Below, one piece after another: positions 3,406-33,055 of a stretch of DNA of 64,000 nt (positions are counted from its first letter, which is position 1; each line of letters begins with the position of its first letter). The DNA is from Chrysomallon squamiferum (lineage: Eukaryota; Mollusca; Gastropoda; Neomphalida; Peltospiridae). The stretch covers positions 13,642,379 through 13,706,378 of the forward strand of contig CM022676.1 of NCBI GenBank assembly GCA_012295275.1, given 5' to 3'. The position numbers and the translations under genes are program-made. Below the pieces are notes generated by a model, which searched no databases, was not told the DNA's origin, and worked only from the letters and a program-made list of their open reading frames with translations.

Positions 3406-3762
3406 CTGCATCACTGAAGATATCTGGTTCTTTGTCTTATGCAGTGTTGAATGAGAAATTTACATTTACTTGTACTGTGTCACAGGCTGCTGGTCTTACT
3501 GACTCAGTAATATTTTATAAAATACAACAAGGAAAAAAGAAAGAAATAGGTTCTCTCTATCAGACTGGTGATACATGTTCTTTATTCAATGATGCTCCTG
3601 GCTACACTCCAGTGTGTGGAGAAGGGACAGACGTTGGATCATCAAGTGTAAAGAACTACACACTGACCATAAACAGAACTTCAACTGATGATGAAACACT
3701 CTGGTGGTGTGAACTGTTTCCAGCTTTAAAGAGGAGCAACAATTTTACTTTACCTGTTTACT
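3406..3762 (+). CDS. Gene A exon: Ig1 (membrane-distal Ig domain), donor lost
   Basis: Acceptor tttttcttttacag precedes the exon. The 357 nt are phase 1-1 and exactly as long as the gene B counterpart. The V-like Ig fold shows FTFTCTV at the B strand and DDETLWWCE at the F strand, with an extra cysteine pair (TCSLF and PVCGEG). The expected donor is changed: gene B has TTTATT then GTAAGT, here TTTACT is followed by ATAAGT, so the invariant G is A. The next GT, at 3767, would shift the frame. The exon may be skipped or the transcript disrupted. Confidence 0.8.
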
Positions 3763-6700
3763 ATAAGTAATTATCATATTAACTAAACAATTAGTGGACT
3801 TTTACTCATTTTTAAAGTGCAGAGTTACACATTAAAATCAAATGACATAATTATATTAGTATATAATGTATGTATGTATGTAGGTACAACATCAAGTAAA
3901 CTTACATCCCCAAAAGAACGATGTTTTTTAAAGAATAATTTTATTTTATTATTTAGATGGTCCAGACTCTGTTACACTCAATTTAACATCACCTTTTGAA
4001 GTGGTAGAAGGACACAGTCTCAGTGTTGACTGTGTTGCTGTGTGTAAGCCAAGCTGTTCCTACTCGTGGAAGCTGGGAAATGATGAACTCACATCAAACT
4101 CTCAACTGAGACTGACAAACATCAGCAGGAATGAAGCAGGAAATATTTACATGTGTACAGTGACAAACTCTGAAACAAAACAGTCTGAAAGTAACACTGT
4201 AACACTGACTGTCTTCTGTGAGTTATTCAGATATTTCAGATTATTTACATCAAATTAACTATTTCATTTTTTGCTCACTTTGAATTTGTAATAACTATAT
4301 ATAAAGTATACACATATTAAATTAGGGTACAAATAAAACAGAACAATGTGAAAGTAACCACTTCACATTGACTATATATATACTTTATTTTCAAATACAT
4401 TTTTTCTTTCTTACTTATTTTAATGTAGTTATCAAATATTCAAACTATTCAGTGTGCTGCAAAATGTATAATGAAATCTCCACATGAAAATACACTTACT
4501 ATTCTAACATTTCTATTTACCTTTTTATTAATATCATCATTTTTATTTTATTTAATTTTTAATTTTTGGTGAATAATAAAACAGAAAATAATTGATAGTG
4601 AATAATGAGAGATTTATATTGATTTGTTTTTTATTTATTTATTTTTGAGAATAATAAAATAGGAAATAATTGTTAGTAAAAAAACACTGCTTCAGATTCA
4701 AATTAAAATATTTTCAGATCCTCCCAGTTCACCACCGGTTATTACAGGAGCAACATTTCCTGTGTTTGAGGGTGACACTGTCACACTGAGCTGTTCTACA
4801 ACTGGTGGAAACCCAAAACCAAATCTGAACTGGACATGTTATAATCCTGTACAATGCTATGACAGTGGAGAAACCAGAACATGTAGAATATCTTTCATTT
4901 CAGGACTCAGAATAACAAAGTGTGTGTTTGTATTCCCTCCTGGAAATATGATGGCTACACTGAAAACAAATCAACAAAGATTATTATTTACTGTGAGTTT
5001 TATCCTATCTCAATCTAAAATGATATTAATATTCTACTTTTTAATGCAAATTCTCTTTATTTATTTATTTATTTATTTATTTTCTTATTTTTATTCAGTT
5101 TTCTCATTATTATTTATTGAGGTGTTCAAAATATTGATTCATCATACATGGAACACATCTTTCAAATTGGAAAACTATTTTTTGCTGGTTTCATTAAATT
5201 TTCTTTTGTGTTTAATTTGTAAAAATATATATGCATGTATGTGAACATGGATGTGTGCATACAGACATACATACACATATATATTTGTGTATGTATGTTT
5301 GTGTGTATACAAATGTGTCTATGTATGTAAGTATGCATTTACTAAAAATATTGTTTATTTTCAATAATTAAAAATAATATATATCCAATTAGGAGTTATA
5401 ATTGTGGATTTATTTGTGATCTGTTGGTTATAGTTAATGTTTATTCATCAGTTTAGTAATTAACAACTGATTTATTTTCAGATCCGCCAAGTCAGCCATC
5501 TTTGTCTTCAAACCCCACACAACCCTGGCTTGAAGGAAAAGCAGGTTCACTGATTTGTTCTTTACCAGAAAGTGATCTTGGAAATCCACCAGCAACATTT
5601 CACTGGATTAAAAATGAACACAACACAACATTTGTGGGATCCAACTTCTCATTCACACCAACAAAAGATGACAATGAAGACAAGTACAAGTGTACTGCTG
5701 AAAATCTGTTCACAGACAGACCAGATCAAACCAGACCTGAATCTAGTGTACTTCAACTCAATGTCTACTGTAAGTTATACTTCAATTTAACTATCTACTT
5801 CAACTCCTAATCTAGCTGTAAGTTATACTTCATTTTAACTATCTACTTCAACTTAATGTTTACTGTAAGATATCTTTCAAGTTAAATATGTACTTCAACT
5901 CAGTACTTTACTTTAACTATCTACTTCAATTCAATGTCTACTGTAAGTATGCTGCAGAATGTGTAATGAAATCTGCACATCAAAATACATTTATTATTTT
6001 AACATTTCTATTTACCTTTTTATTAATATCATTATTTTAATTTTTTCTTTACCTTCTTTTTTTTGAGAATAATAATAAAACAGGAAATAAGTGACAGTCG
6101 AAAATCAGAGATTTGTCTTAACACTGCTTCAGATTCAAATGAAAATATTTTCAGATCCTCCCAGTTCATCACCAGTTATTACAGGAACAACATTTCCTGT
6201 GTTTGAGGGTGACACTGTCACACTGAACTGTTCTACAACTGGTTGAAACCCAAAACCAAATCTGAATTGGACATGTTATAATCCTGTACAATGCTATGAC
6301 AGAGGAGAAACCAGAACATGTACAATATATTTCATAGCTAACAGAACTCATAATAACAAAGTGTGCGTTTGTACTCCTTCCTGGAAATATGATGGCTACA
6401 CTGAAAACAAATCTACAAAGATCATTATTTACTGTGAGTTTTATCCTATCTCAATCTAAAATGATGTTATTATTCTACTTTTTTAATGCAAATTCTCTTT
6501 ATTTTTTTTATTAGCTTTTTTCCTTCTTCTGTTTTGTGATTATTATTTATTTAGGTGTTCAAAATATTGATTCATCATACATGGAATACGTCTTTCAAAT
6601 TGGAAAACTATATTTTGTTGGTTTCATTAGATTTTCTTTTGTGTTTAATTTGTAAAAATATATATGCATGTATGTGAACATGGATGTGTGCATAGAGACA

Positions 6701-9700
6701 TACATACACATATATATTTGTGTATGTATGTTTGTGTGTATACAAATGTGTCTATGTATGTAAGTATGCATTTACTAAAAATATTGTTTATTTTCAATAA
6801 TTAAAAATAATATATATCCAATTAGGAGTTATAATTGTGGATTTATTTGTGATCTGTTGGTTATAGTTAATGTTTATTCATCAGTTTAGTAATTAACAAC
6901 TGATTTATTTTCAGATCCGCCAAGTCAGCCATCTTTGTCTTCAAACCCCACACAACCCTGGCTTGAAGGAAAAGCAGGTTCACTGATTTGTTCTTTATCA
7001 GGAAGTGATCATGGAAATCCACCAGCAACATTTCACTGGATTAAAAATGAACATAACATAACATTTGTGGGATCCAACTTCTCGTTCACACCAACAAAAG
7101 AAGACAATGAAGATAAGTACAAGTGTACTGCTGAGAATCTGTTCACAGACAGACCAGATCAAACCAGACCTGAATCTAGTGTACTTCAACTCGATGTCTA
7201 CTGTAAGTTATACTTCAATTTAACTATCTACTTCAACTCAATGTCTACTGTAAGTAATACTTCAGTTTAACTATCTACTTCAGCTCAGTGTTTAATATAA
7301 GTTATACTTCAGTTTAACTATCTACTTCACTCAGTGTCTACGGTGTTATACTTCAGTTTAAATATATATTTCAACTCAGTGTCTAGTGTGTTATACTTGA
7401 AGTCAAATGTCTGCTTCAACTCAATGTTTACTATAAGTTATAATTCAATTCAGTGTTCTCTGTAAATTATCTTTGTTTATTTGTCGTATTCAGTCCAACT
7501 AGAAACTTCTGCAGCTGTTTTTCAATGTGCCTGTAAAGTAACTGTTTCAGTAAAGAATTGTTTCAATAACGTATTGATAAAATGTCTTGTATACATTACA
7601 TTGTTAATATTTTATAGATTATCCTAGACTACAAATATATCTATCACATTCAAATCCTGTAAAGGAAGGTGATGATTTGACCTTGACCTGCACAGCAGAC
7701 AGCAACCCCAGCTCTGTTGAACTCAAGTGGAAATTTGATGGAAATATTCAAGTAAATAATGGAATACTGGATTTGAAAAACCTCAGTAGAGATAATTCTG
7801 GCAGTTACACATGCGAAGCAACTGTAACAACCAGTAACCATGGAAATCTTGTGAACTCAACTGAAACTGAACTTGTTGTCAGTTGTAAGTACTAATAACA
7901 TTGTCACTTTAATAGAATTACTCCAGTTATATAAATAACTGAGATATTGAGAAGTTTGTCATCAACAACATTGAAATGATTTTACATTATATAATCTTTA
8001 TAACATGTCAGATTAAATAATTTACTAAAAATAAAACCTGTTTCTTTGACTTTTTTGTTTTTTCTTATTTCAGATGCTCCTGATGTCAGCTTCCCATCTG
8101 AGAATTTAACAGAAAACATGTTACTAAAAATAAACTGTTCTGCTGATGGTCGTCCTGACAACATGAACTTCTCAGATTTCAAACACTACTGGAATGACGT
8201 GTTTGTTAGAAAAGTGACAGGCAGACATGTTGGACGTAACAAATACAGTTTGATGTTTGTTTCTGCTTCGTATCAGGACAGTGGAACGTATCAGTGTAGT
8301 GTGCACAACGGGATTCCTGGCAGAAGTGGAACTTTGGAACAGATTGGCTACAGTGTTGTTTATATTAAAGGTAAAAGAAAGGAATAACAAATATATTTCA
8401 TGTAATTTTTAGAGATATTTAAAAACATAATTTCTAGATCTGCTGGTAGAATATAACTGAATAGTACTGAGCTGTATTCAAGATAGATTTTAAATTTTTT
8501 ATTGACAGATTTTAGTATAATTTTCTTTTTCATTTATGTAAACACTCACCACAACTCATCTACAGTTTCTGTTCTCCATTATACACAATCAATTCGAATT
8601 GAAAATGTTTAAGTAAATGAAAAGAGAAATGCTTGACATAAATGTTGCAACAAGGATTTTTATGTATGTTTATAAGTCACTTGTATTTTGGTCTTTTTGT
8701 TGCAAGCAATCTTATTCTAAACTTATTCTAAACATGTATGATATTTCTTCACGTAGTTATTCTGTAAACTGTATGGTGTTTGGGGTATTCTAGCATTTTG
8801 TCTGATCCTCTGAGATTCCTATCAAATGATAAGCAATAAAATCTCAGAAAAGAACAATTTAGAAATATTAGTCAAGCAGTTTCTAAGATATAGATCATCA
8901 AAGTCATTTATAAACTTGGTGACAACAATGAGTTGCTTATCATTTGATTTTTTCATAAACTCACAAAACTGGTATATTTCATGATTTCTAGCTTTATAGT
9001 GTATCTTAGATTAACATAATTATTTGAAAATGATTTTTCATTTCTAAAATATTGATTCAAAAATAAAAATGTCTTTGTTGGTAGTCATATATAATAATAT
9101 AAAAGTATCAGTGAAAAGCAGATTTTACCATTTCAATATGTAGCATCTGTTACTTTTAATATGGATATATGTGTCAGTGGTTTAAAACATAATATATATA
9201 TATTTTGTTTTCTTCATATTTCAGCAAAACCAAAGATCACTATGGAAACTAATCATGATATTGTGGGAGCTGAAATTGGAAAGCCAGTTTTATTAGTAAA
9301 AACTTTGTTTTGTAATCCCACTATCAACAATTATACATGGATGAAATCTGACAGTGAAACAAGTTTTAATAATACGAATGTTGAGGAGACAAATGTCACA
9401 CTGAAAATTCACGGCAAACTGATTAAAGACTCAGGATACAGAATTTCACTGAAAATCACAAACTTCACACAAGATGACACTGGAACATACAAACTGTCTG
9501 TCTGTAATGAAGTTGGATGTTCTCAGTTTTCTGTGAACCTAACTGGAGCAGGTCCACCTCTTCCTCCTAAAGAGTTCCAACAAGAAAGAGAATCAACATC
9601 AGACACAGTGTTCTTGTCATGGCTACCTAACTACCCAGGTGGTAATTTCAAACAAAGATTTATACTGCAGTACAAACCACAAAGTGACTCTAACTGGATT

Positions 9701-12700
9701 ACTTGGACAAGTAAATGGTTTGATGACTCAACACAAGGACAGAAAATGTTTTTTAACATCACCAGTCTCAAAGACAAAACAGTTTATGATGTCAGAATTT
9801 CAGCTGAAAACACGAGGTCTTCAGACAATATGAGCAATTATGTCACCATTCAAGTAATTACAAAAGGTAAACATTATCTATTTTATTAAACACACGATAG
9901 AAACTGCCACTCCATCTGTTGCTATTAAAGGAAGTAAAGATACATTGTTAGTTTCAGAACAGTGATATTATTGTTCATATTCTTTATCAATTACAGTTGT
10001 ATAAAAAGAAGAATGTTATTTTATATGTTATTTATGAGTTACAGTGTTTTAATAAGTAGAATGTTATTTTATATGTTATTTATGAGTTACAGTTTTAGAA
10101 TAGGAAAATGTTATTATATATGTTATTTATCAATTACAGTTTTAGAATAGGAAAATGTTATTATATATGTTATTTATCAATATTTATCAATTACATCTTT
10201 AGAAGAGCAAAATGGTATTATATTTTACAGTTGTTATTTATCTATTACAGCTTTAGAAGAACAGAGTGGTTCTAGTTCTCTGCTTGGTGCAGCTGTAGGA
10301 GGAGCTGTTGGTTCTGTGACTGTCATTGTTGTCATAGTGACACTGATTGTGTTACTTAGAAGACGGGTATTACCAGGATTGTCCACCAAAAAAGGTATGG
10401 TTATACAGCTTGTAAACAGAACAATTTTTAAAAATGTATTGATTATATTCATTATATGAGAACTCTAATAAATCAGCAAACAAATCTAAGAAACAAAACA
10501 TCACTTTATTGTGAACTTCTATTATTATGTTGATATCACTGACTTGTGACTACATGGCTTGCATGTTGGCATTGTTTTAGTATATATTTTGTGTGTTTTT
10601 ATGTGATTAATTTTTTCAAATAGTGATGTCATGCAGATTTTGAAAAAGTTAAGAAAAATAATGTTTTAGCATACTTCTTTTAATATAAAGCCCTACCATG
10701 TTTTCTAATCATGTTTTTATTTTATGTATTTTATTATTTTATATAATTTTAAATAATTTAATACAGTTACTTAAATAAGTGGTATTTGATGTATAATGAA
10801 GAAAATAATTATAAAATAAACATTATATTATTTGGAATAACTACTGGTTGTTTATTAATCTTGAACCAGTGGATAGAGAAATCTCTTTTTATTTCTTCTT
10901 TCCTTTTTAACTAATTTTAGAATTTTTTTTTTATTATTGCTGACATTTTTATTCCTGTTAATTTTTTATTTCAGGAGAGGATATTGACATTGCTTTGTGA
11001 GTATATTTTCACTATTGTTGTTGTTGTTAGTGTTATTATTATAAATATTATTAATATTATTACTGTTTTTGTTATTAAAAGGAGATAAGTGAAAATAAAA
11101 CAAATACATCACCGTAATTTGTTATTAATTCTCCTGTTATTCTATCTGTAGATGACTATAATAAATAGTTTTTATGTTTGTATCTCTACAGGCATTATTT
11201 ATGTGCCAATGTAAATTCTTTCTTTCTTTGTGAGGAACATAATTAGTTAACTTTTATTACTTATTGATGCAACTCACATTCGAACAGTCTTCATTTAGGT
11301 ATACCAAATGTGTACTTAATACTGATTATGATATTATTTAAATGTGCCTTAGGTAACCCATTATAAAACATTTACATGCAGATTATCTGACATAAACAGA
11401 TAACCTGAATTTGGCCTAGGTATTCATTTAAAAACTGAACAGATTCCAGATTTGAACAAAATATAAAACTAAGGAAGTGAAAGCTGACAAATTGTATTTA
11501 CAAACTGAAATTAAAAAATATGTGTCAGTCAGACCTCAATACCATTTGTAACATTAATATTATGATAATTTAAAATGAAATTCTACTTGCTATACAGTAT
11601 GTTTATTTGAACAATCAAATTTAATAAAATAATGAGACATCTGTAAAAGCTTAGCAATCTTTAAAGAATAAAATTTTGTGTTTCTTATAAAATACCAAAT
11701 AACATATAATAAAAATTACACAAACATTCCATTAATTTTCCAGAACATTCCCAACCCTAAGAAATTAGTGTAAAGAAATAGTCGTCTGCTTTTGTGCTCA
11801 CCTTGTTAAAAGAATAAGCAGAAATTTTCATCACATTTTATTATGTTTTATCTCTGTTTGACAACTACATATCTGTTTTTTTATCTGGAATTTATACTTA
11901 AGTATCATATTTTTAAATTTTTAAAGAAAGGCATGGTTTTAAAAAAAAAAAAATCTGTTTATTTGTGGATTATTAATGGTAATTATAAAATATTTTTGAT
12001 TTATTGTTTTACATTCTTATTTTTGTTTGTGACATTTGTATACTAATCCTGTTCAACTCAAGACAGTCTTATTTTGTGCTGTCATGTAGGATCGATTAAG
12101 AACACAAAATAATACACATATGTATTTCCATTGGACAGAAATCCTGGACATATATTAGTATTAATACAAAATCCATAATTATTGTTAAAGTGATCCATGA
12201 TTATTTTCTAATGGATTTCACAAACTTAGAATAAGTGCAGTGACTAAAGAGTGATGTATGTATAAATGATAAGAGAAATGGAATCTACATTCATATGCTG
12301 TTGTGTGTTTTACTTCCTATGGTATAGCACATGCATGATTAGTATTGAACTGATATATATATATTTGCATGCTTTTATTTTTTGAAGATTCTTAATTCAT
12401 ATATATGAAATTTAAAACAATCTTGCGTGTATGTGAAAAAAATACTCGTAAAGCCATATTTTCATACATTTACTAAAAACTAGTAGCTGTTTAGAATATA
12501 TTGCAAGGTATAATGATTATAAAAACAGTAACAGTAATAAAAAGATAGAAAATATTTTTAACATCTTCACAGTTTTATAAAGCTGCAGATAATTAGTTTG
12601 CTTATATTGTATAATAACTGATTTTTTAAAACATTCTTTCTTTATTAATATTCTATTGTGATATATTGTCCAATTTATACGCTATGGGAAAAAAAATAAA

Positions 12701-18906: not shown

Positions 18907-21900
18907 CTCTTTTTCTACTTAATGAGTTATGTTAGGAAACTGTTTATTTTTTACTAACAAACAAATTGCATTCCAGAAATATATGTAAGTAAATATAGTC
19001 TTTATACAGTAAATTTTATAGATTTGTACTATATATTTACTTTAAATGCAAATATATTTGATCTTTTATATTTATTTTAAAGAGTAGTTATTACTTTGTA
19101 CTATGCAGTATACACTTCTTTAAATTTATTTGATTTTATTACTAAAATACTGATCAATTTATTAGAGTGAAACAAAACTAATTCTGAGAAAATGTGATTT
19201 GAAGTTTTAATCTTTGTAACAGAAACCTACTGGTCTTCGTTACATATGCAATATGTTTGAAAAGAAGTTTTTGATAAAAATATACACATGGTTCATTTAG
19301 TTAGAATTTTAGAAAAATGTGATTCACTAATCATTCTGTAAATGTTTTTCAACAGTTACATTATGTGATGTAGATATTTTGTGCTAACCAGTAATGTATC
19401 CACTTTCCCAACAGACATTAAAAACCTACCAGATGTTAAGTATGGAAAATATACCTTTTAACAAAATCCAGTTATCTGTGTTATAATAATTTATACTATG
19501 TGTCAGAATTAATCTGGTTTTGTTTTTCATTTAAAATAGAAAAGCTGTAAAAGTGAGTTTGATTATTATATCCGTTGTCTTTCAGTTGCAAGTTTTCTAG
19601 TCTTTTTTTTACACAGTCAGACCCTACTGTTAGCCTTACTTACGTATCTCTAATGCTGATTCAGTAAGCATGTCAATAGTGTTATAGTGATTAGCCATAC
19701 AAATGACTAATTTTGTTGATTAATTTAGTTTTCATTGTATGATTTTGTAAAAGTAAAATATAAAAGTATGTTATTTTCAAACATTTAAATTTTTTACAGT
19801 TTCTATTTATACAGTGTATTGATGTCTAACAGTGTTTTCTGTGGTCCATGTAATTGGAAGTGTAACAGAATTTCAACTGTATAAGTATTTTATTTATTCC
19901 AGCTAAATATAAATGTTTTCTATAACTTAGAAAATATATACTTACTTTTTTTGTTAATAATATTTCTGTACTTTAATTTAACATTTAATAAATGTGTGTG
20001 TGTGTGTATTTTCTGAGATAGTAAAAACGTCTGTTGATAATAATTGGAATGCCCATTATTTTTGGATAAATGGAAACTGATAACATGAATAATTTGAATA
20101 AAATTACATCATTTTATTGCTATTGATAATTAAAAAACCAATGTGTTGATGTTAATTAAAAAAACTTTAAAAACAGCAAACTTCTGTAAAGCTGTTAGAA
20201 CCTTTGTTATACTAGGTAATATTTTCTACAATCAGTAACCTCAAAAAGAATAATATTCATTATATTGTAAAACACTTGAAATGAATTAAAATGTATATTG
20301 TTTGCCAGCAGCAAACCTTGTCTTTTTATTGTCAAATGTACATTATTCATTTTTGACAGTTTTATTTAAAAATGTGTTTATCTGTGAATATTGCTTAATC
20401 AGTTATTCAGATCATTGTAAAACATTCCATTAACTTTGTTGCATACCATTTTGTTTGTTTACTAAATGCAACACTCCACTAACTCCATGCCTGATTTGAG
20501 AAAATAAACAAAACATACATTTTCATAGATGATATCATACTGCTGTAAATATTCATTACTGCAATTATCTGTGTTGTGAAGAATTAACTGTACTTCGGAA
20601 TAAGAACATTTTTAGATAATTTAAAACATGGACTCCAAAATAAAAAAAAAAGCAAAAAACAAACTTGACAGTACAACTAACAGTATTGAAAAATGAAAAA
20701 CTTAAAATAATAGTGTGTGCTGTGCCATATGTTCATAATATTTTTATTCATATTTATATTCGAATGATAAACCATACTTACAGTGTTTTTAATGTATACA
20801 AATTTTCTGTTATTCTTTTGATTACAAATAAATATTTTTTGCTACAACTTTTGTATATCGAATTTTTGGTTAAAAACAAAATAATAGATGTTTATGAAAC
20901 AAAATGTTCAAGCACTGATATTAAATAACAAATGAAAAATGTTAAACACACTCCCAGCTAAATGTTTTATTGTAGCATCCCAAATTTTCCAAAGATCTGA
21001 TTGTAGGCAGAGATGTTTTTGGACTGGTAGTACCCTCAAAATGTGATATCTCTAATTTGCTAGAAGGATTTGAAGGCAGAGGGTTACAAAAAACTCATAT
21101 ATTTTACAATATACACAGTTATTAGCCCATGTAAATTTAAATTCTTTGACAAGTGATATAATATTAGCAATGTTACATTTATTCACAGTGGCACTACTAT
21201 TCAGAAGGTTTGATGGTTTTTATTAGGGTATCAACTTTGGAATGTTTTAGGACCAGTAGTACTTTAAAAATATGGTATCGCTGATTTCAGGGGAGGGTAT
21301 CAATCACAAACATTTTTCATTTCACACAAAGAAATAATTGGTTCATGAAAACTGAAAACATTTGCAAAACTGTTTGTTATAGTTTGTATTTATGGCCATT
21401 TTGGTTCTCTTTCTGCATTTATGCAAATTAGAATGGTTTATTAGAACCTACAACCTACAAGACTGAGATTAAAATTAAATCCATTAATTGATTTACCCAA
21501 AGAGACTGTCACTGTTAGAATCCATTTTGAAAGTGGCCTCTCATGATGATATGTCCATTTTTTGTCTGTAAATATCTGTCCTGCTAAAATTAATTTAATC
21601 ACGTGCAAATCTATATGGGATACATACTTCCTTATTTCATCAGCTAATAATTTCTTTGTGTGAAAGGAAAATTTGTGTATATGATTTCCCTCCTTTCAAA
21701 TCGTTGTATGTATTTAGTTATATCACATTTTGGAGGTACTGATTAGGTATATTGCTAGGATAAAAACCTAATAAAATGAACCATCCAGTGTACTGAATAC
21801 TGGTGCGACTATACATAAATGCATTTGCAGTGATCAAATCTGGTTCAAAATTAAGTTTGGTGGTGGCCATTTTGAAAAATGGCTGCCTTAGATAATCAGT

Positions 21901-22069
21901 ATCAGTTTTTTACACATAGCATTGCTAATTGTATTCCTGGAAGACCCAACAAAAAAATTGTGTCACTCATGGAGAATCTGATTATTCATAGTTATTTGCT
22001 TCAGTGATTAATAATTGCTCTATGTGTATTGTACATTCAGACTAATCAGTCAAGAGTATTTCTAATGTA
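18907..22069. other. Region between convergent genes A and B, left part
   Basis: The 3' UTR of gene A probably runs to about 20 kb. Beyond that, 20.95-21.9 kb carries moderately complex sequence with two similar 'gactggtagta'-'accagtagta' blocks that may be an old repeat. No exon with Ig, kinase or other motif was seen on either strand, including the missing gene B 3' end. Confidence 0.35.
19987..19992 (+). terminator. Candidate polyadenylation signal of gene A
   Basis: AATAAA about 1.1 kb after the stop codon, followed by GT-rich sequence (tgtgtgtgtgtg). In DNA this AT-rich the hexamer is weak evidence; ATTAAA near 19417 is an alternative. Confidence 0.25.
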
Positions 22070-22820: not shown

Positions 22821-22944
22821 ATAACATCTACACACAATACTGTATAATTACACCTGCTACTGTTAGTTAATGAAGAAAATAATCATCTGGTATTTGTTAG
22901 TTTAAATCATGTAACTAACTATCAGGTAAACTGAATGAATGAAT

Positions 22945-22945
22945 C

Positions 22946-23008
<63 letters not shown>

Positions 23009-23011
23009 AAT
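22945..23011. repeat. (TAA)n microsatellite
   Basis: Uninterrupted run of TAA followed by TAAA units, just 3' of the last gene B exon found. Confidence 0.95.
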
Positions 23012-23482
23012 AAATAAAACAGCACTTTACTAGTTCATTTCAGTAATCATCTTGAAAGTTATGCAGTAAAAGTTTTATTTTGTTCAGACATTACTATAAG
23101 AAATTAAAGTAAACTGATCTGCCCTGTATCTGATGACAGTGTCTGTGCCGAGATACTTTTAATCTGCACTTTTTTATTCATAATTAATTATGAATGGATC
23201 ACAAAAATTAAAATTATTTTGGAAGTTTATAAAATATATTAAGACTTTATTTTTGTAGCAAAAAACTATAAACATTATTTTTAAGAATTAATTATACTGT
23301 TGCAGATCGAAAAATAATTGTAAATAAATAAGAAGTAAAAAAGTAAATAAAATGTAAAAAGAAAAAGAAAAATAGATAAATAAATAAATGAATAAATAAA
23401 TAATCATAAATAAATAACATAAATAAATAATAAAAAAACAACAACAACAAAAGACAAATTAAATTGTGTAAATATTTACAAC

Positions 23483-23593
23483 CTGTTTTCTTGACGTTTT
23501 CATATAGATGAAGTTTAGTGTAATCTGCTGAACCTCTCCTTTCCTGTAGTCCTTCGTATGTTTCATTTGTCTGATCAGCCTCAGATACATCTT
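23483..23593 (-). CDS. Gene B exon: ITAM-like tail
   Basis: Phase 1 entry after gtaatttacag. It codes for acidic EDVSEADQTNET followed by YEGLQERRGSADYTKL and HLYENV. The two YxxL units are at 23547-23558 and 23511-23522, separated by 8 residues, within the ITAM consensus YxxL/I-x(6-8)-YxxL/I, with Glu two residues before the first Tyr. In known receptors a doubly phosphorylated ITAM recruits Syk-family tandem SH2 domains. The 3' boundary at 23483 (donor gttgta) is uncertain: reading on gives a long hydrophobic low-complexity stretch that looks non-coding. Confidence 0.7.
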
Positions 23594-23732
23594 CTGTAAA
23601 TTACAATTAATCATTTCGTAAGAAAAATTTAGCTAAAATGTTAGTTAAACATTTATATTTTGTGAGACCAATATAGTCCAACAGTTATGTATGTGTCACT
23701 TACTTATATTTTTAATTCTCAGTTATAACTAA

Positions 23733-23780
<48 letters not shown>

Positions 23781-26700
23781 ATTATTATTATTATTATTAT
23801 TATCATGTAGAGTATCTAAATAAATGATTTTACAGTTGCAATAAAATAATCATAAATTTAGCTGTTATAGAAGATTTACCAGATCTGGTTTGTATCATTA
23901 CTGGTCTGAGACTTATATCATATCTGCAAGAAGAAATCACGATTTTAAAGTATCTGCATCAAAATAAGTGTGCATAACAGACAGACAGGTCGTAACAGAT
24001 TAAACAGTTTTACTGAAGGAGCACTGAACATGAATATCTGTATGAAATAGACATTTCCAGTACCAACAAGTTGTTTGTTCATGCTGAATCTAAAAATGCA
24101 ACTTCTAAATTGTTATTTTGTTATTGTTGGCATTTAAAATTGATAGATACCTGTGAGTAATACTGTTAGACATACTTTTTTATTTGTTGCTGTATAGCAA
24201 ATTACAAGTTGAACAAACTAAAACATACTGATTTTTTACTAAGTCTGTATTTAACAGTTTTTTATGTCAGCGTTGATAATAGTTACAACTTGCCAGGCAG
24301 ATTAAATTAGAAGTAAGCAAAATAAACTTACGCAGATAATCCATTTTTGTTACCTGCTAAAAAATAAAATGCCTGAAGTTTTGTAATCTTTGCAAGCACA
24401 AATATTTGCAAAGATAGATGTATGCAGACACATATACATATATTTGTCAAATGAGTAGAAATTACATAATTATTATGTGAAATATTCTGATCTGCTAGCA
24501 TTGTGAAAATAAAACTTTAAATTTTTTGTAAATTATACAACTTAGATATTTACATAAAAAAGTATTTCATTTAGTCAAACAGAAATTTGAATCAATTTCA
24601 TTATGTTACTTTCACCATTTACACAACTTATTAATTTTTCATTTACTTTATTTTTCTCTGTTTGCAAAAAGTAAAGGTAAAATATTCCTTGCAGTTATAT
24701 TTTAAAAAGAAAAGAAAAAAGAAATGAGAATACAATAGAGAGAAGACTATTTCATTACAGAAACACAAAAATCAGTATAAATGTTATTGAAACCTTGTTT
24801 ACAGATATATCCTTTTCTTCTGAGTATTTCAAGAATTGCATACATCACAGAAGCAGCAAGAAAACCTATCACAATCCCAACTGCTATACCACCTGCATCA
24901 CCTAGTTTGTCTGACTGCACTAAACAAGCTTCTTCATAACAAACACCTGCATTAAAAATATTACAAAAATACCACAGACACACATTTACTGTGAGATTAT
25001 CTTTGAAATCAACCATGTTAAATAAGAAAGTATAAAATAATAATAATAATAATCATAGCGAAGATTCAAACTTGATGGAAATAATCCCCTTTTGTGATGA
25101 TAAAAAATTTGTACTAGTTTATTTTTGTGGCAAATGGTTACTTTTGTTTTTGGCTTTTTTTTAATGCTATAGTACCCCGTTTCACGAACCTCTTCAACCT
25201 AAACCAAAATATAATTATCATTTCAACTCCTTGGGTTCATCATAGACATGTATTTCTGCAAAACAACAAAAAGAAATTGGTCTTCGTTTACATACTTCAA
25301 CTGAAATAATTTAAAAAAAAAGAAAATTAACGTTTACCATTCCTATTTTGAAACATCACAAAGATCTATATAGGTTATAATGAAAAGGTTATTTTGAAAT
25401 TTTTTTGTTATTGTTTTTAAATATATATATTCCACATTTAGAAACTCTAGCACAAACAGTTTTCATACAGCATCTTTCAAAACATGTAATAGCAGTAAAA
25501 AAAAAAAAATTATAATAATAATAATAAAAACAAAATTAAAATAAAAGGAATAAAGAAAGGCAATGATTAAGAAATACAAATTAAGTTTTATAAATCATAT
25601 TTCCACTTATTATGGCTATAAGGGTGCTGTTATGTATCATTATTATCTAAAAAAACCCACCAAAAACACCATGAAACATTTATCTGGAAAAGTTACTTGT
25701 TTATGAACATTTTCTAAACAGTCATACCAAAAACTGAAAAACAATTTTGGTTATTCAAATGTTGTCATTTTCTGCCAAGAAATAAATACTAATGTTATAA
25801 TAAAATAACTGAATGTCAAATTAATAGCAACTGCTGGGATGTCAGCTTCTGTGGTATGTTTAATATCAGAGATATGTTTACCTGTTGTAATTACTTGAAT
25901 TCTGACATAACCGCTCATATTGTCTGAAGTTCTTGTGTTTTCACCTGAGATTCTGACATCATACACTGTTTTGTCTTTCAGTCTGGTGATGTTAAAAAAT
26001 ATTTTCTGTCCTTCTGTTGAATCATCAAACCATTTACTTTGCCAAGCAGTAATCCAGTTAGAGTCACTTTGTGGTTTGTACTGCAGTATAAATCTCTGTT
26101 TGAAATTACCACCTGGGTAGTTAGGTAGCCAGGACAAGAACACTGTACCTGATGTTGATTGTCTTTCTTGTTGGAACTCTTTAGGAGGAAGAGGTGGACC
26201 TGCTCCAGTTAGGTTCACAGAAAACTGAGAACATCCAACTTCATTACAGACAGTCAGTTTGTACGTTCCAATGTCATCTTGTGTGAAGTTTGTGATGTTC
26301 AGTGAAATTTTGTATCCTGAGTCTTTAATCAGTTTGCTGTGAATTTTCAGTGTGACATTTGTCTCCTCAACATTCGTATTATTAAAACTTGTTTCCCTCT
26401 TAGAGTTCATCCAGGTATAATTATTCATAGTGGGATTACAAAACAAAGTTTTTACTAATAAAACTGGCTTTCCAACTTCAGCTCCCACTCTGTCATTTTT
26501 AGGTTCCATAGTGATCTTTGGTTTTGCTGAAATATAAAACAAACACAAAATTAATTTAAAAAATGTATGTAGTAAACAGCTAAAACAAGTTTCATGTAAT
26601 TTGTTATAAAATAAACAATAGCAAACCCACATTAGAATGAGTTGGAATACATTATCTACATAAACAACACAATTCTCATTTTCACAGAGATTTTCATATT

Positions 26701-29700
26701 ATTACATATGACCAGAATGCTTGAAACGGTAAATAAATTTAGTTTTGATTTAATATTTCAAGTAATTTTATTAATCTAACAAAAAAGCTAGAAATCATCA
26801 AATATATCAGGTTTGCGAGTTCATGCAAGGATCAAATGATGAGGAACACATCACTGTCACTGTAAGTGAATTATTTTAACGTCAGGAAACAAGTTATATT
26901 AGTGGAAGATTCAGTTCACATGCAGGAAACAGTGAGGACATTATAAAGTATATTCAGATTAATACAAGATGATCTAAAAAATTAAAGAAAATCTAAAACT
27001 TGCTTTGTTATCAGACAGCACAGTTCATTTTGGACAAAAAGAAAAAGAAAATGACAGTTTTGAAGTTGTAGACATTTGATGTTTACTTAGAAGAATGACT
27101 GCGATTTAACTGAACGACTCTGGCTCTACTGTCCAAACAATGCTGTTTATGACAACTGCTCATGGAAACCAAAGCCCAATAGGTACACGTATTTACATTG
27201 CATACAAAAAAGATAAATCTTCTTTCATGACTAATTTGAAAATCTCTGTTATTTTTGTCAAACATTTCTTCTTTCTTCTAGGAAAACAGAGGTTTCGTTT
27301 ACTCCAGTCTTTTAAATTACAATCGATGAAGAAACACCGTTATCATTACTGTTTTTCATACCTTTAACATAAACGACACTGTAGCTAGTCTGTACCAAAG
27401 TTCCACTTCTGTCAGGAATCCCGTTGTGCACACTACACTGGTATGTTCCACTGTCCTGATATGAAGCAGAAACAAACATCAAACTGTATTTGTTACGTCC
27501 AACATGTCTGCCTGTCACTTTTCTAACAAACACGTCATTCCAGTAATGTTTGAAATCTGAGAAGTTCATGTTGTCAGGACGACCATCAGCAGAACAGTTT
27601 ATTTTTAGTAACATGTTTTCTGTTAAATTTTCAGATGGGAAGCTGACATCAGGAGCATCTGAAATAAGTAAAATACAGATAAAGTTTTTCTGTAATTTAA
27701 TTAATTTTAAAAAAATCAGACATTTCAGATATTGTCTTCTCTTACAACTTAAAATCTCAATATCTCAGTTATTTATATAACTGCAGTAATTATATTACAG
27801 TGACAATGTTAAGGCAAGACTTACAATTGACATTAACTTTAGTTTCAGACGAGTTCAACAGATCTCCATGGATACTGGCTCTTACATTTGCTTCGCATGT
27901 GTAACTGCCAGAATTATCTCTACTGAGGTTTTTCAAGTCTAGTATTCCATTATTTACTTGAATATCTCCCTCAAATTTCCACTTGAGTTGAACAGAGCTG
28001 GGGTTGCTGTCTGCTGTGCAGGTCAAGGTCAAATCATAACCTTCCTTTACAGGATTTGATTGTGATAAAGATATTGTAATTCTAGGATAATCTAAACAAA
28101 ATATAAACAAAGTAACGTACACAAGACATTTTAACAATACATTACTGAGACAATTATTCACAGGAACAGCACATGACTGAAACACTACTTTGGTAAAACA
28201 AAAACAACAATTAAATAACAATTGGAGATTGAACAACACCTGTAACAGTTTATAGTTAGACTGAAGGAGACGAATAATCATGAAGATAATTTACAGAAAA
28301 CACTGAGCTTAAGTTAATATTCAATCTGAACTACAACTTATAGTGAACATGAGTTTGAGAATAACTTACACCGATCATGTATTGAAATAGATATTCAATC
28401 TGAAGTATAACTTGTACTGATCATTGAAGTGAAGTAGATTTTAAAGCTGAAGTACAATAAAGTATATATCTAATTTTAAGTATAACAAAATTTGAACTGA
28501 AGTATGTAATGAAGTATATATTTAACATGAAGTATAACTCAAGGTAAATACTCAATGATGTAAATATTGAAGTTGAAGTATAACTTTCAGTAAACAGTGC
28601 AGTTATGTAGATATCTAACTTGTAGATATCTAACTTGATATACAACTTACAGTAAACGTTCAGCTGAAGTATATATTTAAGTATGAATTGAAATATATAT
28701 ATACAACCTTGAAGTAGGTATTTAACTTGAAGAATAACTTACAATAAACATTCAGTTGAAATATATATTTAGGATTAAGTATATCTTACTGTAAACAAAT
28801 GCATTGAAGTATATATTTATCATGAAGTATGGCTAACACTAAACACCGAGTTGAAGTAGATATTCAAGATTAACTTACAATATTTGTTTTTACACGTAAA
28901 TATTTCAAGTTGTAATCGTTGAATTGCATGTATTTGTGTATTTTAATCCACAACAATAACCAACGACTGAACATTCTGAACTTAGCCAGTAATATATATT
29001 GATATGTGTATCAATTACAAACAATATAAAATTCACTTACAATAAATAGTCAAGCTTCTGCTTTTTCCCCAGTTGTAGACGCCATACTTCCAACTAGAAA
29101 CACACTCACACACTTTGTTATTCTGAGTCCTGTTAGCCATGAAAGATATTGTACACGTTCTGGTTTCTTCTCTGTCAGAGCAGTGTACAGGATTATAACA
29201 TATCCAGTTCAGATTTGGTTTCGGGTTTCCACCAGTCGTAGAACAGTCCAGTGTGACAGTGTCACCCTCAAACACAGGAAACGTTGTTCCTGAAACAACT
29301 GGAGATGAACTCGGTGGATCTGGAAATGAAAGAGCAAATCAGTAATTTGTTACACTTTACGTTTGCAAAATGTATTATAGTTTCGGCATAAACTCGTACG
29401 AGCAATATCACGTCTGATTTCTGTGATTTTCTTCTTACTGCTCTTGACATAACTGTAGACTGTTTTTATGAATGTTGGAAGGCGACTGTTTTGTTGAAAG
29501 CAGTAAGAGATTGGGAATATTTTCATTTGCACCAAAAACACATATATTTATCTGATGTCATAAACAAGACAAATAATTTATTAATTGGTTAATTATTAAT
29601 ATAAAAGTATATAAAGAAAACTTAAATAAAATATAACAATTAAATTTATTACTTAATCACAAAAATATTGTTCTTCTCATTGCTGCTTATTTAATGAAGT

Positions 29701-31891
29701 TAATTAATATCTTCTGATTAGATCTCTCTTAAGCATATTTAATTTATTCGTTTTATTTTTGTTCCAATTATGTATACTTTTCTTATCTTCATGTAATTAT
29801 GATTAGCATTCCCATCATAAGGTTTCTTATTCACGTTGTTCCACTTTTTTCTTATACTTAATATTACGTATGTTTATTCCTAGTCTATAATTTATAACTT
29901 TTTGAAATACGTAATTTACACTATTAAACAAAATTCAAGAATATTTAACTGTGACAAAAACAAAACATACTACTACTACTACTGCTGCTACTACTACTAC
30001 TAATACTAATACTAATACTACTACTAATAATAATAATAATAAATGTGACAAAAGCACTGTTATGTATTACAGAAATTATTGAGTCTAATATTGTAACAAT
30101 TAACAAAGCTTTGCATTTAAATTTAAAACAAGAAGAGATTAAAATCAATACTCCATTAAGTTCAGTTAATTAGAGGTAAATTCTATTAAACATTCATGTT
30201 TTGCAATGAAACTTGAATAACTCAAAGTAAATTGTCAGTCTGAAGTTGTTTCTTTCAGACTGTTTTGCTTTGGTGTTGTTACTGTAATTTAATACTAGTG
30301 AAAACGAGACTCAAAATTAAATAGATATTTTAATACAAACTAAATAATATTTAAAAATATAGCTCACAATAAGCTGTCAGTGTCAACTGGTTACTTTTAG
30401 TCTCTTTTGTTTTAGACTGATACTAATTTAAATGCTATCTATTAAATTTTAACGATGTCAATAATATCAAAGAAAAATCTGAGTAACTCACAGAAGACAG
30501 TCAGTGTTACAGTGTTACTTTCAGACTGTTTTGTTTCAGAGTTCGTCACTGTACACGTGTAAACATTTCCTGCTTCATTCCTGCTGATGTTTGTCAGTCT
30601 CAGTTGAGAGTTTGATGTGAGTTCATCATTTCCCAGCTTCCACGAGTAGGAACAGCTTGGCTTACACACAGCAACACAGTCAACACTGAGACTGTGTCCT
30701 TCTACCACTTCAACAGGTGATGTTAAACTGAGTGCAACAGAGTCTGGACCATCTAAGTAATAAAATTAGAATAGTATTTAATAAACTTTATCTACAGTCT
30801 ACGTATGGAAATGTAATTTTACTTGATGTTACACGCACACAAATTAATATCATTTTATTTAGTTTAATGTTTAACATTGTACTTTTAAAATGATTAAAAT
30901 TCCAATACTTGTTTAATTAATATGATAATTACTTACAATAAACAGGTAAAGTAAAATTGTTGCTCTTGTTTAAAGCTGAATTCAGTTCACACCACCAAAG
31001 CGCTTCATCATCAGCTGAAGTTCTGTTTACGGTCAGCGTGTAGTTCTTTACCCTTGATGATCCAACGTCTGAACCTTCTCCACAGACTGGAGTGTAGCCA
31101 GGAGAACGATTGAATAAAGAACAACTGTCAACAGTCTGATAGAGAGAACCTATCTGTTGTGTTTGGCTTCCAGTTAGTTTATAAAACTGTACCAGGTCTC
31201 TAAGACCGTCAGCCTGTGACACAGTACAAGTAAATGTAAATGTCTCATTCAACACTGCATAAGACAAAGAACCAGATATCTTCAGTGAAACACCTATACG
31301 GAAACAAATTAAATAATAAATACCTTTTAAAATTATAAAAATTGGACACTTGAAAAAATTAAACAGAGTTTATTAAATTGTTTTTTATATTATTATGATG
31401 ATGATGATGATGATGATATTCTGTCATCACTAAAACAATTCAAACCGCATGTTAATTATTTCAGATATTCAGTGTCTAACATTTTTCCAATGTACTCGGC
31501 CTTCAACCTCACATAATACGATGTATTTTGCACGTATACTACCATACAGTCCTCTAGAATTTTGAATTATTTAGTGGTTCTCAGTAAATATCTATGAACC
31601 TATTCACATAGTTGTGAAATAACGATTTTAATTATCATTCATTACACATTGTACTAACTGGTCACTACAGTGATAACTGTCAGCTGAAACCAGATATTAT
31701 AAGGATATATAATGTTCTGAATAAAGAACAGTGTAAGAGTACGTATATCAATTTGATTTTAATGTGTTATGTGCTATTGTACAGTCAGTAATTATAAAAA
31801 TGGTTATGGTATAATTCAACTTGGTCTAGTGTTACGTACATTACTTCAGTTTGAACAAGGAAATTTATTCACGGAAAACAAAATTATATAT

Positions 31892-31924
<33 letters not shown>

Positions 31925-32867
31925 CGGATAGATAGATAGATAGATTACAAATGGTGTCCGGATTGCAAGAGTGATAAGAATAACTGTTATACACATTTTG
32001 CCGTAGATTTGTTTTCTTGCTCTTAATTATTCAATGATTTTTTGTTTCTCGAAGATCATTTTTAGAGTAACAATTTGAAGTATTTAACTAGATCGTTTCC
32101 GACAACTCCATTATGTGAAATATAATCCAAGTGTAACATTATAACACTATACTAGCTGTCACAGTACATTTTACTATCACTGTAGAACACTGCACTTCAC
32201 AACCTCGAAATGAAACAAAATCTTAATCGCATCTCTTTCTTTTATTTATATATTTATTACATAATTGTTATTATTATTATTATTATTATTAAAATTATTA
32301 TTATTATTTTATATTGTTACTGTTATTGTTATTGTCATTGTTGTTATTATTATTATTATTATTATAAAAATATACGTCGCAAATCTGATATGTTTAACGT
32401 TCCTTACAGTTTATGGGACTTCATAGTCCGATTCATTCACTTTTCACAGAGACGACGTTCAGTTTAAATAATATACACCAAACTAGTTTTAACCAGGGCA
32501 CAGACTGAATAACTTTTCAGTACACAGTTTATATCAGTAATATCTAACATATCTGTTTCAATGTATGAATTAAATAGTATCAATAAAATTTACCTAAATA
32601 TCCAACAATCGAAGCAGAAACAAGTATGTATCCCACTATCGCCATAGTGTATGTTGTGATTTACTTTGTTTCTTTCGTGTACACAAGTTATAGCCAGTCT
32701 ATCTAAGTTATCTTACTCGGTCACGTTATTACTTCAGCGCTCTCACTGTAATAAAGCGTCTACTTCTATCTCGGTTAAGGTATAAAAAAATCTCATTCTT
32801 GTCAAGACTAAAATCAAAAATAATAAAAACAGATAAACAAGATGAATAACTAAATAATAATAATTAT

Positions 32868-32912
<45 letters not shown>

Positions 32913-33055
32913 CAGCTCTGACCGGCATAAATCTGAATAATACAAATGAATAAATAAATAAATGAATAACCAAATAAAAAAACAATTGAATGAAACTTAC
33001 CTGTACTACATGTAACAATCATGACAGAAACTAGTAAATATCTCAATGGCGCCAT
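23483..33055 (-). CDS. Gene B: multi-Ig/Fn3 transmembrane receptor with ITAM-like tail
   Basis: Spliced model on the minus strand. One of two alternative signal exons is followed by Ig1, Ig2, Ig3, Ig5, Ig6, Ig7-Fn3, transmembrane exon, a 22-nt and a 44-nt exon, and a tail exon. About 830 codons are resolved. All ectodomain exons have the same length and phase as in gene A (except one extra codon in Ig7-Fn3) and all are intact here. The Ig4 exon of gene A is missing. After the Fn3 exon the two genes diverge completely. The tail has YEGL and YTKL, giving YxxL-x8-YxxL as in an ITAM, plus YENV. A signalling, probably activating, receptor is inferred. The last exon found ends in phase 1 at a weak donor (gttgta) and no final exon was recognised between 18.9 and 23.4 kb, so the C terminus is unresolved. 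Confidence 0.8.
23735..23804. repeat. (TTA)n microsatellite in gene B intron
   Basis: Run of TTA/ATT units with one AAT interruption, between the 44-nt exon and the ITAM-like exon. Confidence 0.95.
23880..23923 (-). CDS. Gene B exon: 44-nt tail exon
   Basis: Acceptor ttcttcttgcag and donor gtaaat. Phase 2 to 1, coding YDISLRPVMIQTRS. Frame fits both neighbours exactly, which supports this three-exon tail model. Confidence 0.65.
24332..24353 (-). CDS. Gene B 22-nt microexon
   Basis: Acceptor ttttttagcag (NAGNAG) and donor gtaagt. Exon of 22 nt, phase 1 to 2, codes NKNGLS. It matches in size and phase the gene A microexon at 10975. Here the following 44-nt exon restores the frame. Confidence 0.6.
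24794..24946 (-). CDS. Gene B exon: transmembrane segment
   Basis: Exon of 153 nt (51 codons), phase 1-1, acceptor tttttaatgcag and donor gtttca. Juxtamembrane VCYEEACLVQSDKLGD contains two cysteines. The helix is AGGIAVGIVIGFLAASVMYA with Gly/Ala packing motifs, then a basic RRKG stop-transfer. Not similar to the gene A or gene C transmembrane exon. Confidence 0.8.
25882..26526 (-). CDS. Gene B exon: Ig7 plus fibronectin type III
   Basis: Exon of 645 nt (215 codons), phase 1-1, acceptor ttatatttcag and donor gtaaac. The Ig half again has GTYKLTVCNEVG, with Leu where the canonical F-strand Cys belongs. The Fn3 half has FLSWLPNYPGG, RFILQYKPQ and VYDVRISGEN. One extra codon relative to gene A (ITAWQSKWF against ITWTSKWF). 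Confidence 0.9.
27362..27658 (-). CDS. Gene B exon: Ig6
   Basis: Exon of 297 nt, phase 1-1, acceptor tacttatttcag and donor gtatga. LLKINCSADGRP, FKHYWNDVFV and DSGTYQCSVHNGIP. Equivalent to gene A 8074-8370. Confidence 0.88.
27825..28091 (-). CDS. Gene B exon: Ig5
   Basis: Exon of 267 nt, phase 1-1, acceptor attttgtttag and donor gtaagt. NPVKEGYDLTLTCTADSNP, LKWKFEGDIQVNN and RDNSGSYTCEA. Equivalent to gene A 7618-7884. Confidence 0.88.
28290..28900 (-). repeat. Expanded donor minisatellite in gene B, without its exon
   Basis: Minus-strand sequence consists of many degenerate units with TACTTCAACT and GTAAGTTAT, as after Ig4 in gene A. Donor-like cttac motifs occur near 28368, 28645, 28740, 28787 and 28875 on the plus strand. 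The Ig4 exon body is not found in the whole Ig3-Ig5 intron (28092-29040). Confidence 0.65.
29041..29319 (-). CDS. Gene B exon: Ig3 (intact)
   Basis: Exon of 279 nt, phase 1-1, acceptor tttcatttccag and donor gtaagt. FEGDTVTLDCSTTGGNPKP, LNWICYNPVHC and an atypical F strand (NNKVCECVSSW). Only one copy exists in gene B and it is open, whereas both copies in gene A are broken. Confidence 0.86.
30492..30752 (-). CDS. Gene B exon: Ig2
   Basis: Exon of 261 nt, phase 1-1, acceptor ttacttag and donor gtgagt. EGHSLSVDCVAVCKPSC, YSWKLGNDEL and NEAGNVYTCTV. Almost identical to gene A 3957-4217. Confidence 0.88.
30937..31293 (-). CDS. Gene B exon: Ig1
   Basis: Exon of 357 nt, phase 1-1, acceptor ttccgtatag and intact donor gtaagt. 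Same fold and cysteines as gene A Ig1 (FTFTCTV, SCSLF, PVCGEG, DDEALWWCE). About a quarter of residues differ from gene A, far more than in Ig2. Differences cluster in the stretch after FYK. Confidence 0.87.
31891..31945. repeat. (GATA)n microsatellite in gene B first intron
   Basis: About 13 TAGA/GATA units with one GACG interruption. Confidence 0.95.
32594..32645 (-). CDS. Gene B alternative first exon 1b (signal peptide)
   Basis: Start codon at 32643-32645, donor gtaaat, phase 1 end. It encodes MAIVGYILVSASIVGYL, again a signal peptide. It shares the ATGGCG start and about 100 bp of upstream sequence with exon 1a, so the two arose by tandem duplication of promoter plus first exon. Confidence 0.75.
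32646..32760 (-). promoter_or_regulatory. Upstream region of exon 1b, duplicated promoter/5' UTR copy
   Basis: Minus-strand sequence just before the exon 1b ATG matches that before exon 1a (33056-33165) in blocks: GTTGTGA, TTGTTTCTT, GTACACAAGTT against GTACACGAGTT, CTAAGTTA against CTAGGTTAA, GTCAC, and a GCGCT core. No clear TATA box. Promoter function is inferred from position and block conservation. Confidence 0.4.
32865..32911. repeat. (TAA)n microsatellite between the two first exons of gene B
   Basis: Run of TAA units that separates exon 1a from exon 1b. Confidence 0.95.
33001..33055 (-). CDS. Gene B alternative first exon 1a (signal peptide)
   Basis: Start codon at 33053-33055, donor gtaagt, ending in phase 1 as Ig1 requires. 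It encodes MAPLRYLLVSVMIVTCST, a typical short signal peptide. A second version lies about 400 bp downstream in the gene. Confidence 0.78.

Follow-up and report, generated by a model that had tools for sequence, protein, structure and literature searches.

Similar ectodomains with inhibitory or activating tails: a probable paired-receptor family in a vent gastropod

In the genome of the scaly-foot snail Chrysomallon squamiferum, a 64,000-nucleotide stretch (contig CM022676.1, here C12, positions 13642379-13706378; hereafter the window, within which exon coordinates are counted) holds two tail-to-tail genes, A on the plus strand and B on the minus strand, that are built from immunoglobulin (Ig) and fibronectin type III (Fn3) domain exons of phase 1-1. 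We suggest that these genes belong to a gastropod multi-Ig/Fn3 family of paired receptors, in which one ectodomain is probably made with either a tail carrying immunoreceptor tyrosine-based inhibitory motifs (ITIMs) or a tail carrying an immunoreceptor tyrosine-based activation motif (ITAM). The origin of this family is very probably independent of that of the vertebrate paired receptors. Read from their sequence, A and B form one of several units in which an ITIM gene and an ITAM gene converge, and the ITIM half of this unit is partly damaged in the present assembly. Paired ITIM/ITAM receptors have been regarded as a vertebrate speciality, with invertebrate hints that are scattered and come from allorecognition loci. 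If our reading is correct, the paired design has arisen on its own in an animal that lacks adaptive immunity of the vertebrate type, and a clustered molluscan family provides a natural setting in which to study how tails are switched.

Results

One ectodomain and two tails

The ectodomains of A and B are 92% identical at the nucleotide level and 87% at the amino acid level, with a ratio of non-synonymous to synonymous changes (dN/dS) of 0.61 (603 codons; Ig3 and Ig4 omitted). Pfam Ig matches are present in both genes, and the Pfam fn3 score is 27.0 bits in A, above the cut-off of 25, and 20.7 bits in B, below it. The exon order of A is Ig1, Ig2, Ig3, Ig4, a second Ig3-Ig4, Ig5, Ig6, Ig7-Fn3, a transmembrane (TM) exon and the cytoplasmic exons T1 and T2, with a stop in T2. 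In B, a signal-peptide exon, for which there is a second candidate, is followed by Ig1, Ig2, Ig3, Ig5, Ig6, Ig7-Fn3, TM and a cytoplasmic exon T1; no Ig4 exon was seen in this gene. The first-pass annotation had described a shared plan with matching exons. The tail-to-tail arrangement and the closely similar ectodomains stand, and a full match of the exon plans does not, given the Ig1 donor, the two Ig3 copies and the doubled Ig3-Ig4 of A. It had also called the membrane and cytoplasmic parts unrelated. The tail exons indeed have no counterpart in the other gene (tblastn, window). The membrane exon is not tied to tail type: A-type TM exons precede ITAM exons in other genes and in the Gigantopelta gene model P0001 described below.

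With the ITIM consensus set as [SILV]xYxx[ILV], T2 of A (18718..18906, plus strand) encodes two ITIMs, LLYVGIDF and VEYVSIDW, at a spacing of 23 residues; in both, position +4 is D and position +5 is aromatic. The aromatic +5 and a spacing of about 23 suit SHP-type phosphatases with tandem SH2 domains (compare PECAM-1). T1 of A (17755..17849, plus strand) encodes DVYENV and GTYANAV. Three ITIM-like motifs had been proposed for A; two are confirmed and the third, DVYENV, does not fit the consensus. T1 of B (23483..23593, minus strand, exon end uncertain) encodes ETYEGLQERRGSADYTKL, in which the ITAM-like motif proposed earlier proves to be a strict ITAM (YEGL-x8-YTKL; consensus YxxL/I-x6-8-YxxL/I), followed by a further YENV. 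Two canonical ITIMs arise in 0.47% of shuffles of the A tail; under stricter patterns, picked after the motifs were known, two ITIMs each with a hydrophobic +5 arise in 30 of 200,000 shuffles of the A tail and the B ITAM with D/E upstream in 317 of 200,000 shuffles.

Both tails are conserved in many copies

Searches of the C. squamiferum genome covered 404.6 Mb in 22 contigs. The match counts given here for the tail exons, which include matches at E up to 10, and for the Ig7-Fn3 exon are lower bounds. T2 of A has at least 24 matches (11 on C12, 13 on C3), 19 of these 24 under E 0.01. Nine C12 matches are at least 85% identical, two C12 matches are 47% identical and the thirteen C3 matches are 24-37% identical. 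Fifteen of the 24 were read, i.e. all 11 on C12 and four of the 13 on C3. The first ITIM is kept in all 15, and the second motif is a canonical ITIM in eight, TxYxxI in six and degraded in one. The TxYxxI form, which we take to be similar to an immunoreceptor tyrosine-based switch motif (ITSM), is found in both of the 47% C12 copies and in all four C3 copies read. The exon with the ITAM in B has at least 32 matches (30 on C12, two on C8), 27 of 32 under E 0.01, and there are often two such exons per gene. Among the 29 of these 32 that were read, a strict ITAM is present in 27; one failure is a Y-to-H change and the other a YTKF. A second cluster lies at C3:5.5-6.5 Mb, with 13 ITIM-exon matches; the four that were read combine an ITIM with the ITSM-like motif (LVYTEVEF, TVYIQIDF), and in the genome search this cluster gave no match to the ITAM exon of B.

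For the Ig7-Fn3 exon, with 150 of 178 candidates scored, there are at least 145 genome matches, including at least 29 places on C12 at 65% identity or more, some of them partial. The domains differ in how variable they are: mean identity is 0.78 for Ig1 (A, B and three copies), which is the most variable domain with a dN/dS near 0.94, 0.84 for Ig3, 0.84 for Ig5, 0.89 for Ig7-Fn3, 0.94 for Ig6 (six genes) and 0.95 for Ig2 (five genes), the gene sets being partly different. The variability of the outermost domain, Ig1, fits a ligand-facing role, a comparison that is not a test for positive selection. The dN/dS ratio of Ig2, which is based on hardly any silent changes, and that of T2 (0.56 over 28 pairs) were set aside.

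Tail type alternates on the ectodomain tree

Each Ig7-Fn3 exon was assigned the nearest downstream tail on the same strand; by hand, the ITAM exon lies 1.2-3.4 kb and the ITIM exon T2 4-13 kb from the Ig7-Fn3 exon. The first-pass annotation had proposed an ectodomain tree as a check for alternation between ITIM and ITAM tails, and a tree of 25 genes (10 ITIM, 15 ITAM) shows such alternation. These genes form four ectodomain clades, each with both tails: clade O (two ITIM, three ITAM; support 100/99), the type I clade, which holds A and B (three ITIM, three ITAM; 96/99), type II (one ITIM, three ITAM; 98/95) and type III (four ITIM, six ITAM; 97/97). At least 8 tail changes are needed on the tree. 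A single ITIM clade is rejected by the approximately unbiased test (p-AU 5e-7; without clade O, 4e-118). Within type I, with genes labelled by their C12 position (12736 being C12:12.736 Mb and 13575 C12:13.575 Mb), A groups with 12856 (ITIM) and 12966 (ITAM), and B with 13002 (ITAM).

The tree omits three Ig7-Fn3 copies without an assigned tail (12736, 13575 and 12923) as well as partial, damaged or distant copies (2596 and 16443, which have ITAM exons nearby, 13770, 13788, 16238, 13373, C13:3413, 657 and weaker matches). Conversely, one ITIM tail (13011) and two ITAM tails (12839 and 12563) have no placed ectodomain.

Clade O lies outside a group formed by Gigantopelta and types I-III (support 90/79, with a long-branch warning). 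Its Ig7-Fn3 pieces are 35-39% identical to that of A, and its tails of both kinds are distinct from their counterparts in types I-III. The simplest reading of the tree is that both tail versions predate the Gigantopelta split, and that ectodomain homogenisation or tail swaps within clades would have followed. This split has been placed near 66 million years ago (PMC7736800). A lone clade O ITAM gene outside C12, with two ITAM exons, is found at C8:35.086-35.090 Mb.

Neighbouring convergent genes are of opposite type

C12 carries 29 genes with a tail (11 ITIM, 18 ITAM). Six adjacent convergent pairs lie within 15 kb, and all six combine an ITIM with an ITAM gene (label permutation 0.011). These are A/B in the window and the pairs at 13.006/13.012, 12.839/12.845, 2.672/2.676, 12.679/12.686 and 12.512/12.521 Mb. 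Within pairs, the Ig7-Fn3 identity is 0.89 for A/B, 0.91 for 12672/12687 and 0.92 for 12499/12524; for 2660/2678 it is 0.81, over 125 columns only. In a smaller tree, the ITAM ectodomain of the type III pair at 12.67-12.69 Mb is the nearest to the ITIM one (fork 84/78), and the larger 25-gene tree leaves this fork open.

Birth and death of genes in an array could also produce alternating tails by neutral exon shuffling, with no opposing signals. Consistent with this idea, the tree shows no more clustering by tail type than shuffled labels give (8 changes against a shuffled mean of 8.07), some genes have neither tail, and several copies contain stops or frameshifts. However, the ITIM and the ITAM motifs are both retained in divergent copies, those of the old clade O among them, and each of the six convergent pairs within 15 kb combines opposite types. 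We consider it quite improbable that neutral shuffling is the explanation.

A joined ITAM tail in Gigantopelta and the relation to nephrins

The best protein matches come from Gigantopelta aegis, with up to 52-53% identity. One of them, P0001, is a 'hemicentin-1-like' gene model of 963 amino acids with a B-like signal peptide and an A-type TM segment, in which Ig and Ig7-Fn3 segments in the order of A are joined to two ITAMs in one chain (TYEGLQERRDSAQYSKLTMYQNL and ...LTVYQNL). The Haliotis protein P0008 carries NPYSGLQDRADDKQTYTELKNYEN, which reads as an ITAM only if a spacer of 9 is allowed. Because P0001 and P0008 carry ITAM tails, the ITAM tail belongs to this receptor family.

An unlikely alternative is that these proteins are adhesion molecules in the style of nephrin or SYG-2, with tail tyrosines that dock Grb2/Nck adaptors as generic SH2 sites. 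The best-scoring named relatives outside gastropods do include nephrins, sticks-and-stones and SYG-2-like proteins, many Ig domains followed by one Fn3 domain is the architecture of such molecules, and YENV and YANA are YxN motifs, which we take to be of the Grb2 type. Against this stands a tree of Ig5-Fn3, built by a quick method and without paralogues from the snail's own genome, in which A and B are joined first by Gigantopelta, then by an unnamed protein and by Haliotis (Shimodaira-Hasegawa approximate likelihood ratio test, SH-aLRT, 95) and in which this clade is separate from the nephrins, including the SYG-2-like protein of the bivalve Ruditapes (SH-aLRT 91); membership in the nephrins was rejected on this basis. 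Moreover, clustered copies, a variable outer domain and alternating tails are unlike single-copy adhesion genes, and the ITIM and ITAM motifs are kept in divergent copies. The best match to a vertebrate protein named as a CEACAM, a reptile CEACAM5-like protein, scores 118 bits (25% identity over 89% of the query); nephrin-named proteins, at up to 154 bits, and proteins from gastropods score higher. The predicted structure of P0001 has a mean predicted local distance difference test score of 72.7 and a predicted template-modelling score of 0.38, with the tail under 50; its structural matches (contactin, MDGA1, titin, DSCAM and, lower, PirB and SYG-2) are strings of Ig domains and were set aside as uninformative.

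The integrity of gene A

The exons of A upstream of its tail (all on the plus strand) are a V-like Ig1 (3406..3763), in which the splice donor is AT where B has GT, Ig2 (3957..4217, open), a first Ig3 (4718..4992), in which four nucleotides are missing and the frame is broken, a first Ig4 (5482..5769, open), a second Ig3 (6155..6433) with an in-frame stop, a second Ig4 (6915..7202, open), Ig5 (7618..7884), Ig6 (8074..8370), Ig7-Fn3 (9225..9866) and a TM exon of the GAAVGGAVGSV type (10257..10394, alternative acceptor at 10251 or 10260). Minisatellites with units of 47-57 bp are located at 9983-10260, adjoining the TM exon, and at 5749-5942 and 7182-7450, where they start at the 3' ends of the two Ig4 exons; B holds a similar minisatellite at the place of its missing Ig4.

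In B (minus strand), the signal-peptide exon (33001..33055, MAPLRYLLVSVMIVTCST) resembles the N-terminus of P0001 and has a 100% identical copy at C12:13110226. A second candidate (32594..32645, MAIVGYILVSASIVGYL) may be an alternative first exon. They are followed by the V-like Ig1 (30937..31293), Ig2 (30492..30752), Ig3 (29041..29319), Ig5 (27825..28091), Ig6 (27362..27658), Ig7-Fn3 (25882..26526) and TM (24794..24946). The donors of TM (AAG/GTTTCA) and T1 are weak; a copy of this TM exon followed by an ITAM exon lies at C12:12837898. Two candidates for the C-terminus of B were rejected: a terminal exon at 20568 scores as non-coding, and so does a read-through of T1, which enters a microsatellite. 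When the coding score of each exon was compared with 1000 open non-coding stretches, stretches scoring as high made up 0% for T2, 1.1% for TM and 1.9% for T1 of A and 1.2% for T1 of B; the score was not significant for TM (11% as high) and the signal exon (18%) of B.

A could be a dying copy, such that the pair in the window does not work and only B, the ITAM gene, does. We regard this as a serious possibility, somewhat short of even, and it is compatible with the family as a whole being one of paired receptors. The broken Ig1 donor, the loss of four nucleotides in the first Ig3, the stop in the second Ig3 and the lack of any candidate signal-peptide exon within 23.4 kb upstream all point in this direction. 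Nor do the upstream blocks that A shares with two paralogues contain a signal-like exon. However, 2439 nucleotides in nine other exons of A are open, where about six stops would be expected under neutral drift at the divergence of A, and simulations stayed free of stops in 0 of 400 cases at 0.058 per site, in 1.3% at 0.04 and in 10% at 0.02 (these model substitutions, not indels). Compared with Gigantopelta outgroups, A has 18 private amino acid changes and B 38 (sign test by hand, near p 0.01); because it has fewer than B, A has been constrained at the protein level until recently. In addition, because all domain exons are of phase 1-1, the damaged exons could be skipped. The small indels may themselves be errors, because the assembly is nanopore-based and the animal highly heterozygous: it is described as an error-corrected draft of 407.8 Mb from nanopore and Illumina reads with 1.38% heterozygosity (PMC7142155). 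A comparison of exons for gene conversion between A and B showed no significant difference in their four-fold sites (p 0.11).

Because A is damaged and the search for its signal exon gave no candidate, copies elsewhere may serve as the working ITIM partners, e.g. that at C12:12.818-12.837 Mb. This gene (minus strand) has the plan of A including the doubled Ig3-Ig4, its exons are open and its splice sites intact as far as they were read, and the sole coding flaw seen is an apparent indel in T1. In the ITIM gene at C12:12.845-12.861 Mb, a frameshift disrupts Ig4 and a stop follows the two ITIMs.

Observations that weigh against a family of paired receptors

Several observations speak against the family being one of paired receptors. 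In the genome, tails were joined to ectodomains by strand and proximity. The gene model P0001 contains the join for the ITAM tail; for the ITIM tail it is drawn from exon phase, strand and proximity, and protein models carrying this tail were not found. Protein-database searches with the tails of A and B found nothing, the search with B being insensitive because it missed P0001, which carries a B-type tail. Three exons of A carry lesions, no signal exon turned up for this gene in the range searched, and the signal exon was likewise not found for the type I ITIM genes at 12.818-12.837 and 12.845-12.861 Mb (6-23 kb searched). A and B, although adjacent on the chromosome, are not sisters when paralogues are included in the tree; for two tree genes (13359 and 13226) the exon on which the tree was built contains a stop, and some of the sequences are incomplete. 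At least two genes with an A-type TM exon, at C12:12736401 and 13574679, have neither tail within about 14 kb downstream; they could represent a third tail type, decoys or loss. Among the convergent pairs, the ITAM half at 12.839/12.845 Mb is without a nearby ectodomain, and the 2.67-Mb pair looks decayed: its ITAM half has a TM exon interrupted by a stop, a frame is shifted in Ig7-Fn3, and no TM exon was seen for the ITIM half. Finally, segmental duplication of a single ancestral unit may have produced the six pairs, and because of this the permutation value overstates their independence.

Other features of the window

A further family member occupies 60198-63960 (plus strand), with exons like those of the Gigantopelta proteins P0003 and P0006, a TM exon that is 93% identical in nucleotides to that of A, and a tail beyond the window. 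Another Ig-type gene at 36765-39764 (minus strand) has two Ig-like exons and a TM exon, with a long tail that contains neither an ITIM nor an ITAM. The window also contains a hAT-type transposase at 49385-51269 (plus strand; spin-doc zinc finger and hAT dimerisation domain above the cut-off, BED finger just below) and a repeat of 1.2-1.4 kb at 33276-34638 and 47677-49035 (92-97% identical). An Rfam search of the window gave no match.

Discussion

The reading of A and B as paired receptors, put forward in the first-pass annotation, gains support from the alternation of tails, the conservation of both motif sets and the six convergent ITIM/ITAM gene ends; that the genes work as paired receptors is what we infer from these. 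In this model, the ITIM tail would be spliced to the ectodomain, and the tandem ITIM/ITSM-like tail would likely recruit an SHP-type SH2 phosphatase. In the other version, one or two ITAMs would likely recruit a tandem-SH2 kinase of the Syk/Shark type, and, from established ITAM/ITIM biology, Src-type kinases are expected to phosphorylate both tails. The two versions may engage shared or closely related ligands, such that the balance of ITIM and ITAM signals would set the response. Haemocytes or other barrier cells are the likely site, with recognition of microbes, symbionts or cell state as possible functions.

In a broader form of this model, on which our judgement is evenly balanced, a large complex has evolved independently and been kept since before the Gigantopelta split, with each ectodomain lineage present in matched inhibitory and activating versions, several of them convergent. 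Recombination or gene conversion would swap tails or homogenise ectodomains, while the V-like domain diversifies. Such a complex would be a molluscan counterpart of KIR, LILR and CEACAM, perhaps serving to tell symbiont from pathogen. The vent snail Gigantopelta is reported to host endosymbionts (PMC7895826). We speculate that the family may have a bearing on symbiont tolerance in vent snails.

Parts of this arrangement are known from other systems. Nephrin, SYG-2 and sticks-and-stones, which are among the best named matches outside gastropods, also have a multi-Ig plus Fn3 ectodomain; the snail receptors lie outside their clade. The oyster CgIgIT2 is a mollusc receptor with five Ig domains, an ITAM and reported roles in bacterial recognition and ERK signalling, yet it is a single receptor, and no ITIM partner is described in the available text (PMC11999971). 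In Drosophila, Draper-II binds Corkscrew via an ITIM and Draper signals through Shark. Draper-I and Draper-II are an invertebrate case of ITAM/ITIM opposition, but these two forms arise by alternative splicing of a single EMI/NIM receptor and do not come from separate Ig genes (PMC8092387). In Botryllus, homologues of nearly all ITAM/ITIM signalling components are expressed and FcoR7 has an ITIM, and allorecognition candidates in Hydractinia bear ITAM and ITIM; in the fester/FcoR system, however, the pair consists of a fester-family receptor and a co-receptor, and near-identical ectodomains with both tails are not described in the available text (PMC12065747).

LILR, PIR, SIRP and KIR resemble the snail genes in being clustered and in having inhibitory and activating forms of a shared ectodomain. 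In these vertebrate systems, most activating receptors signal through an adaptor, by way of a charged residue in the TM segment, whereas the ITAM of the snail genes sits in the receptor itself. Closest in logic to the snail receptors are CEACAM1 and CEACAM3 and the related paired CEACAMs of mammals and Xenopus, Ig receptors from a multigene family in which similar ectodomains carry either ITIM/ITSM or ITAM-like motifs in their own tails (PMC5112662, PMC2832619). By comparison with CEACAM, the snail tails alternate in four clades and some of the genes form convergent pairs. We know of no Fn3 domain in the vertebrate CEACAM family. Among the matches listed from the open-licence literature, there is no description of such paired receptors in a gastropod. 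The design itself is already known from vertebrates, and its probable gastropod version appears to be new.

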